IMG/VR virus record: IMGVR_UViG_3300042356_000196
Location: 1-50,419 of that record
Source: a virus
Strand: one strand, 5' to 3'
DNA: 50,419 nucleotides
Under the pieces are notes generated by a model. That model made no database searches. It had not been told where the DNA came from and was given only the letters and a program-made list of their open reading frames with translations. Each line of letters starts with the position of its first letter. The stretch's first letter is position 1. Of the stretch, positions 30,506 to 36,975 are shown piece by piece. The position numbers and the translations under genes are program-made.

Positions 30506-30734
30506 TCCTGTACGACTCTTCACCATTTCGGTAGTCGTGCCCTTGGACAGCATCGTAGGCAACAACGTCACCCTTATGTATATGCTCAGCAACTAAATCG
30601 CTGACCTCTATAACCTCTGCCTCCTGGTAACGCTGCTTTACAATCTCAGCTCCAGTGAGTAACAACCCACTCGCGCTCTTTTGCTGCTCTACAACTAGAG
30701 GCTTAACTACAATAAAACTATTTAACGCTTTCAT
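30471..30734 (-). CDS. groES: Co-chaperonin GroES
   Basis: 87 residues. N-terminal strand SFIVVKPLVVEQQ, mobile loop with SASGLLLTGAEI (hydrophobic GLLLT like the GroEL-binding IVL of GroES), and C-terminal KGDVVAYDAVQ with YRIIQYRDVALIL. It caps the GroEL ring during ATP-driven folding. Its ATG lies inside the last codons of groEL (17-base overlap), so it is translated by coupling and its order is the reverse of the bacterial groES-groEL operon. The 3' end overlaps the plus-strand regulator gene by 35 bases. Confidence 0.88.
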   Translation of the reverse strand: MKALNSFIVVKPLVVEQQKSASGLLLTGAEIVKQRYQEAEVIEVSDLVAEHIHKGDVVAYDAVQGHDYRNGEESYRIIQYRDVALIL

Positions 30735-32316
30735 TCTCTCTTACATTTGTGATTATCGCATTCGTACTAAGGATCGTAGTGGCCACAGATACAGCATTCT
30801 TAAGCGCGTTCTTAGTTACCTTCGCTGGATCAATAATACCCATCTTCACCATGTCACCTGTCTTCTTATCCTTCACGTTGTAACCCCTGCCTACACTACC
30901 ATCGTCAAAGAACTTCTCGTAGTCCAACACCTCGTTGCCATCAACGCCAGCGTTCTCACAGATCTTATGGAATGGAGCCTCGCACGCCTGAGACATAATG
31001 TCCAACGCAACTGATGGGTTACCGTTAACCATAGCTTTAGACGCTGTAAACGCCATCGCGTTCACAAGTCCTACACCACCACCAGGAAGCACACCATCCT
31101 CAATCGCAGCCTTAACAGCCAGCACCGCATCGTCAACACGATCCCTCAACTCCTTCTGCTCGATGTCTGAACTAGCACCAACGTAGATCATACCTACACC
31201 TCCTGAGATAGAGGCAATTCGTTCGTCCATGAACTTAAGGTTCTCCTCCAACGTCTCCTCCCACTTGCTCATCTTAAGCTCCTTAACGTATGCATCAAGG
31301 TCCTCATCAGTGCCCTCGTGACGCACAATGATCGTACTGTCCTGACTAACGATGATCTTCTTCGCCCTGCCAAGTCCTGACACCGTACACAACGCTAGGT
31401 TGTCACCAGTAGACTCTGAGTAGTAGTGAGCACCCAATGCCTTGGATATATCTGTCATCATCTCGTCCTTACGGTAACCGAAATTAGGTGGGATAATGTT
31501 ACATACCTTGATCTTGCCCTGCACAACGTTCATGTTAAGTGTAGCTGATACCTGTGGTGACAGCTGACCTACAATAAGCAATGGCTTACCTTCCTTCAAC
31601 ACATGAGCCAGTACGTTCTCTATGTTAGATAGATTATTAATCTCATGATCCGTAAGTAACACATACGCATCCTCCATCACGCACTCCATCTTCTTGTGAT
31701 CCGTAACGTAGTACTTAGATGTCCACCCCCTGGCAACACGGATACCCTTAATAACCTCAGAGTATGTCTTCGTGGTCTTAGAGTTCTCTACAATAACATG
31801 GCTAACCTGTGAGTACACATCAGCGATCAACTTACCTACAACTGGATCATTGTTCGCAGAGATCGTCGCTACATCAAGCAGCCTCTTACCACTGACCTTC
31901 TTAGACATACGTCCAAGCTCCTTCACTACATCGTCTGCAATTGATTGGATCTGTCTTAGTACCTCAGTCTTGCTGTGCTTGTCTACATCAAAGTAGTCCT
32001 CGAACGCATCGATAATAGCCTTGGTAAGCACAATACTAGTCGTAGTGCCATCACCTGCCGACGAAGCCGTCTTAGATGCTGCCTCCCGTACTAACTGTAC
32101 CGCTAAGTTCTCTACTGGATCGTACAAGTTGATTGATCGTGCGACAGTCACACCATCCTTTGTAACAGTCACACCTCCTATGTGGTGTTCTGACTCTATT
32201 AATACCGTCTGACCTGATGGCCCTAACGTAGATGAAACTGCTGCTGATATCTTGTCGATGCCATTTTTCAGTTTCTTACGTCCACTTTCATCTAAAAATA
32301 TCTGTTTTACTACCAT
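30718..32316 (-). CDS. groEL: Chaperonin GroEL (phage-encoded)
   Basis: 532 residues, against about 545 in bacteria. ATP-site motifs are present: TLGPSGQTV (30-38), KDGVTVAR with the Asp equivalent to Asp52, AGDGTTTS (87-94), and VDDAVLAVKAAIEDGVLPGG with Asp396. The apical domain (about 190-370) is present. The Gly-Gly-Met-rich C-terminal tail of bacterial GroEL is missing; it ends NESVK. A TTTG-N19-TATATTTG promoter lies upstream, so expression may be early and host-driven. It probably folds phage proteins, alone with the phage GroES or with host subunits. Confidence 0.95.
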   Translation of the reverse strand: MVVKQIFLDESGRKKLKNGIDKISAAVSSTLGPSGQTVLIESEHHIGGVTVTKDGVTVARSINLYDPVENLAVQLVREAASKTASSAGDGTTTSIVLTKAIIDAFEDYFDVDKHSKTEVLRQIQSIADDVVKELGRMSKKVSGKRLLDVATISANNDPVVGKLIADVYSQVSHVIVENSKTTKTYSEVIKGIRVARGWTSKYYVTDHKKMECVMEDAYVLLTDHEINNLSNIENVLAHVLKEGKPLLIVGQLSPQVSATLNMNVVQGKIKVCNIIPPNFGYRKDEMMTDISKALGAHYYSESTGDNLALCTVSGLGRAKKIIVSQDSTIIVRHEGTDEDLDAYVKELKMSKWEETLEENLKFMDERIASISGGVGMIYVGASSDIEQKELRDRVDDAVLAVKAAIEDGVLPGGGVGLVNAMAFTASKAMVNGNPSVALDIMSQACEAPFHKICENAGVDGNEVLDYEKFFDDGSVGRGYNVKDKKTGDMVKMGIIDPAKVTKNALKNAVSVATTILSTNAIITNVRENESVK

Positions 32317-35616: not shown

Positions 35617-35921
35617 AACAAGATGAGGGAACGACCTCATGTAAAGCTTAAGAGTAATTAAAAGGGGGTGACAAAGCTAACCACTGAACAAAGCTTAACA
35701 ACAACAATACGATCTTTGACATATATAACTAAGTAGGGGCAAGCGGTGCGGACGTTACTTAGTTTATACATTGGGTGCACATTCTTGTCGGGAATGTGGG
35801 AACACTGAATTAATAGACGGCATGTAGTACTTTGTACGTGACATGCACACATGGTGCAATTGATACGATCAACTAGTCAGAGCGAAACTGATTGCACCAC
35901 TAACCAAATAAAATAAACACC
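35617..35921 (+). ncRNA. Hairpin-rich early leader RNA
   Basis: No gene in about 300 bases. Predicted helices: ATGAGG/CCTCAT (35623-35640, 6-base loop); AACTAAGTA/TACTTAGTT (35727-35735/35756-35764); CACATTC/GAATGTG (35778-35784/35792-35798); GCATGT/ACATGC (35820/35841) with inner GTAC/GTAC; GGTGCAAT/ATTGCACC (35853-35860/35891-35898). The last ends 23 bases before the first ATG. Either a regulatory 5' leader or a separate small RNA. Confidence 0.55.
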
Positions 35922-36044
35922 ATGAGAACAGTAGAAAGATTGATCGAAGTAGCTTTCATTAGCTTATTTGTAGCGGCATTTATGTTTGTCGTAGTTATGG
36001 CCTGCACAGGGCATGTATATGCAAGTCACACAGGATTAGGATAG
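35922..36044 (+). CDS. 40-residue membrane peptide
   Basis: M at 35922, preceded by ACCAAATAAAATAAACACC. A single membrane helix (VAFISLFVAAFMFVVVMACT, residues 10-29) follows a short charged start. First gene of the early operon. Function unknown. Confidence 0.65.
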   Translation: MRTVERLIEVAFISLFVAAFMFVVVMACTGHVYASHTGLG

Positions 36045-36292: not shown

Positions 36293-36397
36293 ATGAGCAA
36301 GATCATTAAAATTGAGGGAGCATATGAGATCATAGGCTTTTTCGTAGAGGGTAAATTAGTAAGCACAACTAAAAGAAGAGTAACTAACTGGAAATAG
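36293..36397 (+). CDS. 34-residue early peptide
   Basis: Starts MSKIIKIEGAYEIIGFFVEG and ends TKRRVTNWK. Preceded by ACCAAATAAACCAAACACC. Supported by the leader motif and spacing; function unknown. Confidence 0.55.
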   Translation: MSKIIKIEGAYEIIGFFVEGKLVSTTKRRVTNWK

Positions 36398-36422
36398 TAT
36401 TAACATTTAAAAATTAGAAATC

Positions 36423-36587
36423 ATGAAAATCGAAAAAATAATTCAAGAGTATAAGTTTATTAAGTTAGTTAAAACAGAAATGATAATGGGGGGAAATTAT
36501 GCCGTAATTAATGGCGATAGAGCAAAAACAGGTCTAACATTAGATGCGGCTTATGATCTATTTAAATTATTAAAAAAACTAGGTTAA
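36423..36587 (+). CDS. 54-residue early protein
   Basis: Starts MKIEKIIQEYKFIKLVKTEM; the C-terminus is helical and basic (LFKLLKKLG). Its last codons and TAA stop (36582-36587) form the 5' strand of helix I of the hammerhead ribozyme that follows, so translation to the stop would disturb that fold. Confidence 0.65.
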   Translation: MKIEKIIQEYKFIKLVKTEMIMGGNYAVINGDRAKTGLTLDAAYDLFKLLKKLG

Positions 36588-36660
36588 CTGACGAGTCTTG
36601 AATAGACGAAAGCAATTAAATGAACGGATGTTCAGCCATGCGAATGGTTTGCTATTAACC
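36582..36660 (+). ncRNA. Hammerhead self-cleaving ribozyme (type I)
   Basis: Complete catalytic core in order: helix I 5' strand GGTTAA (36582-36587), CTGACGA (36588-36594; fits CUGANGA), helix II GTCT-TGAAT-AGAC (36595-36607), GAA (36608-36610), helix III AGCAA (36611-36615) with TTGCT (36649-36653), cleavage base A36654 (site CUA, fits NUH), helix I 3' strand TTAACC (36655-36660, perfect 6 bp). Helix III is capped by two hairpins: TGAAC-GGAT-GTTCA (36621-36634) and GCCAT-GCGA-ATGGT (36635-36648, GNRA loop). Cleavage is predicted between 36654 and 36655. Confidence 0.88.
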
Positions 36661-36677
36661 AAATAAAACCAAACGAC

Positions 36678-36860
36678 ATGACAAATATAGCATTTAGAGA
36701 TATCGCAGGCGGAAAGATTCACGTGTACACGGCAAACCAGGATTTACCAAAGAACGAACGAATCAAGGTAGCATTGGAAGAATTGAAGCCAATGGGTAAT
36801 ATTGTAATCTACCTATACAAAAGAAGAAAGTTTAGAATTATTAAAGTAAAGAGATATTGA
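36678..36860 (+). CDS. Small early protein downstream of the ribozyme
   Basis: 60 residues: FRDIAGGKIHVYTANQDLPK, then NIVIYLYKRRKFRIIKVKRY, basic at the C-terminus, beta-rich. After ribozyme cleavage its mRNA would begin UUAACCAAAUAAAACC, 23 bases before the ATG. Function unknown. Confidence 0.68.
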   Translation: MTNIAFRDIAGGKIHVYTANQDLPKNERIKVALEELKPMGNIVIYLYKRRKFRIIKVKRY

Positions 36861-36861
36861 T

Positions 36862-36975
36862 ATGGAGACAAATGAAATATTCGATCTCAATGATCGATTG
36901 ACGCAATTACGCATGAAAGCATTGCGTATCACATTAGCTGACGGAATGTGTACATATCTGTTGGCATTTAATTAA
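36862..36975 (+). CDS. 37-residue early peptide
   Basis: Starts METNEIFDLNDRLTQLRMKA; one base after the previous TGA. Helical. No family recognised. Confidence 0.55.
   Translation: METNEIFDLNDRLTQLRMKALRITLADGMCTYLLAFN

Follow-up and report, generated by a model that had tools for sequence, protein, structure and literature searches.

Hammerhead ribozymes that flank phage genes were described by Perreault et al. (2011; PMC3088659), in the accessible text of which transcript processing is proposed as their function, the hammerhead of HF1/HF2 is placed 13 nucleotides (nt) upstream of a start codon, and the role of hammerheads in phages is called unclear. As far as the accessible portions of two other papers go, theta (HDV-like) ribozymes of gut phages are postulated to process tRNA 3' trailers (PMC10879173), and bacterial hammerheads and twisters show an enrichment around certain genes that is greatest for genes of Mu-like phages (PMC10085705). 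Here we examine a related element in a viral stretch of 50,419 nt (IMG/VR record IMGVR_UViG_3300042356_000196, positions 1 to 50,419; hereafter the window), in which positions 36582-36660 of the plus strand are very probably a real hammerhead; judging from the sequence, we consider it likely that this is a type I hammerhead standing between two small phage genes and cutting their co-transcript between A36654 and U36655. With the type I members of Rfam family RF00163 it shares the open helix I, the CUGANGA...GAA core, the A15.1-U16.1 pair and an NUH cleavage site, and it differs from them in that its helix III holds a 33-nt three-way-junction domain and its score falls under the family cut-off. 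It flanks genes, as do the hammerheads that Perreault et al. report from phages and prophages, whereas the accessible text of that paper does not describe a helix I (GGUUAA/UUAACC) that pairs with a repeated leader, the flanking adenines, the domain in helix III, or a single phage with as many as 15 hammerheads. The theta ribozymes are likewise self-cleaving phage RNAs with a postulated role in RNA processing, but their fold is different and, in the portion of that report available, their postulated target is the tRNA 3' trailer. No report of the helix III domain or of the leader-locked arrangement was found among open-access titles and the openings of abstracts, a scope that leaves out subscription papers, preprints and supplements. 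The mechanism is of a known kind; the recurring helix III domain, for which we found no description, is the new part.

Read directly from the sequence, 36582-36660 contains all elements of a type I hammerhead in the correct order and spacing. The upstream open reading frame (ORF; 36423-36587, on the plus strand like all features named here, 54 aa, without a Pfam match) ends with a UAA at 36585-36587 that lies within the 5' strand of helix I, GGUUAA (36582-36587). This strand forms six of six Watson-Crick pairs with UUAACC (36655-36660), and unpaired adenines flank the helix on its 5' (A36581) and 3' (A36661) sides. There follow the catalytic core CUGACGA (36588-36594), helix II (36595-36607, GUCU at 36595-36598 paired with AGAC at 36604-36607 around the loop UGAAU), the core GAA (36608-36610), and the 5' strand of helix III, AGCAA (36611-36615). 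The helix III arm then runs through a UUAAA joining strand (36616-36620), hairpin A (UGAAC-GGAU-GUUCA, 36621-36634) and hairpin B (GCCAU-GCGA-AUGGU, 36635-36648, with a closing G.U), and returns as UUGCU (36649-36653). The A15.1-U16.1 pair is A36611-U36653, the NUH triplet is CUA, and A17, the H17 position, is 36654, after which the geometry places the predicted cut (36654/36655). The leader UUAACCAAAUAAAACCAAACGAC (36655-36677), whose first six bases are the 3' strand of helix I, spans the 23 nt from the cut to the ATG at 36678, where a 60-aa ORF without a Pfam match (36678-36860) begins. The initial annotation had called a complete hammerhead here from the letters alone, and its coordinates proved exact.

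A scanner for three hammerhead types, which also found the CUGANGA and GAA segments in the correct order and spacing, gives exactly one match in the window, this element, and 300 dinucleotide-preserving shuffles of the window gave no hammerhead of any type. A covariance model, R1, derived from 43 other phage hammerheads with the window and its twin L022 left out, matches the element (core included) at 53.3 bits (E 7.7e-15), and the second-best match stands at 9.7 bits (E 1.4). Homologues were gathered with a 24-nt pattern of the core and helix II, which occurs at 69 sites in 67 IMG/VR contigs; 65 of these sites pass the full type I descriptor, two (L017, L041) were found by R1, one (L054) is of type III, and one (L033) failed the descriptor and was left out of the model searches, the R1 search taking in 50 of the 67 pattern records. 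In the alignment A3 (43 of 53 distinct sequences, those above 62 nt being dropped, the window's twin among them), helix I is changed on both sides at all six pairs and helix III at four of five, with a covariation score of 0.705 against a shuffled mean of 0.131 and 99.5% of cells paired. The A15.1-U16.1 pair is kept in 43 of 43, a count in which the A was fixed by the search pattern. Helix II is invariant in A3 because that same pattern fixed it; elsewhere (in L200, and in the alignment A6 discussed below, where three of its four pairs covary) it varies with compensation. The three-helix topology, open at helix I, is seen both in the sequence and in the covariation of its homologues.

A further pattern built upon the GGUUAA helix I occurs in 100 stretches of viral contigs and in two bacterial metagenome-assembled genome (MAG) contigs. 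The hammerheads in these two contigs are of the GGUUAA type; the contigs carry the labels Aliivibrio (L207) and Cryomorphaceae (L208), and L207, which bears many hammerheads over 5.8 kb, may belong to a phage and have been binned with a bacterium. Altogether the loci L001-L067 and L199-L284 supply 257 distinct type I sites, where distinctness is judged by the ribozyme and 30 upstream bases, so that close relatives are included and the counts are not of independent events; the gathering patterns fix the core and part of helix II (one scan also GGUUAA), and the descriptor demands at least five pairs in helix I and at least four in helix III. These sites define a subfamily signature. Helix I is exactly 6 bp in 238 of 257, beyond the descriptor's minimum of five; an A stands directly 5' of it in 247 and directly 3' in 222; and among the 243 members with a 13-nt helix II, loop II begins with U in 242, has A as its third base in 220 and has U as its fifth in 204. 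H17 is U at one site only and A, as in the window, at 33. The window carries the full signature (A36581, A36661 and the loop UGAAU), and these flanking adenines together with the U-N-A-N-U loop look like the contact between loop II and helix I of hammerheads that appears in the accessible text of PMC3088659.

Where the longest frame of at least 30 codons was taken on either side (no upstream frame at 13 of 257 sites, no downstream frame at seven), the upstream stop starts between -14 and +17 relative to helix I in 238 of 257, with six stops outside that range. It starts at +3 within helix I, the window's place, at 73 sites and elsewhere in the 5' half of the ribozyme at 68 (141 in that half overall), and it begins 1-14 nt 5' of helix I at 97, of which 40 (at -1 or -2) extend into the helix. 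A start codon follows 19-25 nt past the cut at 174 of 257 sites; among the 164 whose helix I is GGUUAA, 137 have one at this distance. Ribozyme and longest open frame share a strand at 218 of 253 sites on the upstream side and at 215 of 253 on the downstream side. In the window, co-oriented genes, a stop at the 5' edge of the ribozyme and a nearby start occur together, and the twin L022 likewise has its stop at +3 and its start at +23. In the window the post-cut sequence UUAACCAAAUAAAA is the start of a leader that this phage repeats: AACCAAATAAAA occurs seven times in the window with at most one mismatch, against 0.73 expected, and TAACCAAATAAAA occurs at 35901, 36656 and 36976, each time 21-23 nt before an ATG and only at 36656 with a ribozyme. 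In G012, whose portal protein is 82% identical to that of the window, a similar leader stands at several neighbouring genes, one with a type I and one with a type III ribozyme. The type III hammerhead (L199 1726-1775) lies shortly 5' of the leader of a 40-aa gene, which by eye resembles the window's gene at 35922, where the leader has no ribozyme. Helix I is therefore matched to the leader, and it is precisely this leader that cleavage would expose. The initial annotation had placed a new 5' end at 36655, and this predicted end fits because it is there that the repeated leader starts.

The same annotation had remarked upon two extra hairpins in helix III and left them uninterpreted; they turn out to recur in other phages. 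The 33-nt junction was first recognised among the longest helix III arms, and pattern searches recovered it as 13 distinct sequences in 15 contigs, the window not counted. A looser pattern of this module returned 16 contigs, of which eight lack a hammerhead core by eye, and a further one found the module in 15 of 34 contigs, L294 being a hammerhead without it and the others having no visible module. Nine of the 13 distinct sequences make up the alignment A6, from which L025 and L257 (misaligned) and L254 and L271 (long hairpin B) are absent. Compensatory changes occur in each of its five helices, at 14 of 25 pairs (among them four of five in helix III, as in A3, and, changed on both sides, three of five in hairpin A and two of five in hairpin B), with a covariation score of 0.566 against 0.186 for shuffles. 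The UUAAA strand, the GNAU loop of hairpin A and the closing G.U of hairpin B are constant in nine of nine; the constancy of UUAAA counts for little because it was part of the search patterns, while GNAU, which was absent from them, is kept in 11 of the 13 distinct members and fails in L254 and L271. In isolation the arm is predicted to fold as this same junction in five of six members, the outer helix opening in L295, and three of the six folds are not distinct from shuffles (z above -1.4). Under the model R2, 16 module loci including the window score at least 61.9 bits, and the other matches listed in 161 sources reach at most 51.6. The domain is present in seven of the 257 sites, which were gathered irrespective of helix III. 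A pattern of the domain only, with no hammerhead letters, returned 23 viral contigs, and the nine full domains in these all lie within hammerheads; for the one size of hairpin A that this pattern describes, no free-standing full domain was found in the 23 contigs, 14 of which do not form the domain. Up to E 10 the interval 36450-36800 gives three Rfam matches, none of them a riboswitch. At each of the 13 module sites 21-23 nt separate cut and start codon and the stop begins at -3 to +7; the downstream proteins fall into nine groups with no mutual match at E 0.01. Most likely, we infer, the domain stabilises or protects the structure that cleavage would leave at the 3' end of the upstream message, or is a binding site. 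A more specific reading, that the junction acts as a sensor or protector by gating cleavage in response to a ligand, a protein or the ribosome, or by forming an exonuclease-resistant 3' end on the upstream message, we put forward tentatively; if true, it would mean that phages divide up their operons by RNA-encoded cleavage sites whose strength can be tuned. In either case, helix III offers a small recurring RNA domain whose role is directly testable. A second recurrent helix III insert, roughly GGGGUGUAC...GUGCAUCCCC-UUU, was seen by eye in L028, L216, L222, L268, L272 and L246, and may be another conserved domain.

The phage that hosts the element appears to be related to phages of Flavobacterium and Cellulophaga, as the named phages with portal relatives infect Flavobacterium, Cellulophaga, Tenacibaculum and Maribacter, all at below 60% identity. 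Relatives of the 54-aa and 60-aa flanking proteins occur in a single viral contig (L022, the same as L069 and L070), whose sequence agrees with the window at all 901 bases compared, and the exact gene pair was sought in other phages and not found. The DNA of 36400-36900, compared with 29 of 80 portal relatives, matched G012 in short stretches (leaders and ribozyme core) and G006 in a single weak one. Some contigs carry far more than one ribozyme. G077 (L201, L202), a 39.8-kb record, has 15 hammerheads on one strand in the 29.8 kb read, 14 of type I and one of type III, and G066 has five within 1.7 kb. Eleven of the hammerheads of G077 fall in one 10.8-kb stretch among 31 called ORFs, and its sister G099 gives 12 R1 matches. 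The initial annotation had made conservation in related phages a test of its proposal: the core is indeed kept in such phages, but the gene pair is not fixed and many portal relatives are without the element.

Taken together, the comparison shows, at the level of sequence, the fold, its covariation, the subfamily signature and the placement between stop and leader in many phage contigs. It is reasonable to postulate that the co-transcript would fold behind the polymerase and be cut when ribosomes do not cover the ribozyme. The upstream message would then retain its stop and have the folded ribozyme as its last part, helix III and the three-way junction standing at the 3' terminus, and the downstream message would begin, with a 5'-hydroxyl end, at the repeated leader (23 nt in the window). 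We infer that such cleavage occurs in the cell and that its purpose would be to separate the fates of neighbouring messages, namely their stability, copy number and translation.

Several observations weigh against a functional hammerhead, and three of them (the Rfam score, the folding energy and the competing fold) would also be expected were the element a chance resemblance or an inactive relic. The Rfam model Hammerhead_1 (RF00163) scores it at 16.4 bits against a cut-off of 34 (E 0.41 over 351 bases), and no family reaches its cut-off when the whole window is compared with Rfam. The folding energy of the isolated element does not stand out (z -1.39; 21 of 200 shuffles are at least as stable). 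Within a stretch of 171 nt a competing fold has the lowest energy, one in which the upstream coding RNA pairs with helix II and the GAA. Forcing the hammerhead there costs 7.4 kcal/mol; when the upstream 60 nt were shuffled ten times the mean cost was 4.6 kcal/mol, and nine of the ten values lie below that of the window. Two of five covariation measures in A3 do not exceed shuffles (81 of 500 shuffles are as high in pairs changed on both sides, and 364 of 500 in further pair types). Last, G003, a 56.5-kb record with a portal 99% identical to that of the window, has no hammerhead by R1 or by the scanner; among 50 of the 80 portal relatives searched with R1, many of them fragments, five give a match with an E of 0.1 or lower, of which those of G012 and G053 alone are strong, the other three standing at 11-12 bits. 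Because of G003, and because only G012 and G053 match strongly, the hammerhead is dispensable in these phages. A chance match or relic is nevertheless very improbable, as no shuffle of the window yields a hammerhead, the core and the subfamily signature are intact, and the homologues covary. In the Rfam alignment of the element the partner assigned to helix I is the wrong strand and the long helix III is passed over, and in the loci tested most members of the subfamily fall below the cut-off: of 17 ribozymes found by R1 in L199, L200, L202 and L203, two exceed it, and of 20 further loci, each with at least one by R2, none does. We rejected the cut-off search as a decisive test because clear relatives fail it too; a curated Rfam score is a filter and not a definition of the hammerhead fold. 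A general pairing of upstream coding RNA against the ribozyme found no support as a trait of the family over 81 sites, the cost of the fold in context having a median of 1.49 kcal/mol as against 2.17 with the upstream 60 nt shuffled, and being lower than shuffled in 59 of 81 (Wilcoxon P 0.003, for sites that are not independent), a trend to which the window is an exception.

If the hammerhead is real, its activity might be governed, or its presence accounted for, in other ways. The placement of the window's UAA within helix I led the initial annotation to suggest that translation gates cleavage, with terminating ribosomes covering helix I and core and cutting occurring mainly when the upstream gene is little translated. 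The stop starting in the 5' half of the ribozyme at 141 of 257 sites, and at -3 to +7 in all 13 distinct module-bearing sites, speaks for this, but the position is variable, with 97 stops starting 5' of helix I; the hammerhead sequence has stops in all three frames, and therefore any frame entering it must end there; and genes are tightly packed in any case. In the window, moreover, the predicted competition between the upstream coding RNA and the hammerhead means that ribosomes could promote cleavage as well as impede it, and the local competing fold would reverse the proposed effect. Gating by terminating ribosomes is thus possible in the window and would not be a fixed property of the family, and we think it rather unlikely as the general account. 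About as doubtful is a natural aptazyme, in which the helix III domain would bind a ligand or protein and switch cleavage on or off. The invariance of GNAU and the closing G.U in A6 while surrounding pairs covary, and the predicted junction fold of the isolated arm in five of six, are what such a device might display, yet the domain-only search gave no full copy outside hammerheads, L254 and L271 lack GNAU, UUAAA was itself a search criterion, and the constant positions could be purely structural; the nine mutually unmatched downstream groups at the 13 sites speak against a metabolite switch for one pathway. It might also be that ribozyme and leader serve, or mainly survive, as a patch of homology for the exchange of small genes. 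In L280 the two are 90.5% identical to the window over 105 bp, the other DNA matches lie at 66-75% apart from a 34-bp stretch at 91%, and its flanking proteins show no match to those of the window; one gene family follows a ribozyme in L025 and precedes one in L254 and L271; and the 34-aa gene at 36293, without a ribozyme in the window, has relatives directly behind one in G012, L011 and L013. Pure DNA homology, however, would not yield covarying helices, and such exchange is compatible with cleavage as the selected function, so we hold it quite unlikely as the main explanation.

The preferred reading, a ribozyme that cuts at a gene border, receives a cultured counterpart in Cellulophaga phage phi19:3, in which a type I element (44.8 bits by R1) lies between gp051 and gp050, the gp051 stop UAA falling inside helix I, like the upstream stop of the window, and the next start following the cut by 34 nt. 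The same phage has a Pistol ribozyme (RF02679) at the border of gp046 and gp045 (L334 2883-2950; 46.5 bits against a cut-off of 34.5). Pistol shares with the hammerhead the gene border of a phage that bears both, and differs in fold; none was found when the whole window was searched with Rfam. Because two unrelated ribozyme classes occur at borders in phi19:3, border cutting is suggested to be the selected property. Agrobacterium phage OLIVR1 (L335 1498-1547) also has a hammerhead (47.7 bits by R1), intergenic between small genes, with tRNAs nearby and with its annotated upstream gene ending more than 100 nt before it; as OLIVR1 is a proteobacterial phage, the subfamily is not limited to phages of Bacteroidota. 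Against annotated phages a 501-base query gave no match, and a 32-base query met a microvirus capsid gene (E 0.9) that neither R1 nor the scanner calls a hammerhead. Three longer queries gave matches at E 0.2 or worse only, two of which, those in phi19:3 and OLIVR1, were confirmed by R1. The portal relative MW202828 has no hammerhead. The order of stop, ribozyme, cut, leader and start predicts exact RNA ends, and phi19:3, grown on Cellulophaga baltica, is a cultured phage in which this architecture can be tested.

With regard to the surrounding genes, the label "early" that the initial annotation gave to the flanking pair is drawn from the array of small genes beside replication genes. Elsewhere in the window, positions 30718-32316 hold a phage-borne GroEL-type chaperonin gene (Pfam Cpn60, E 1.2e-58).
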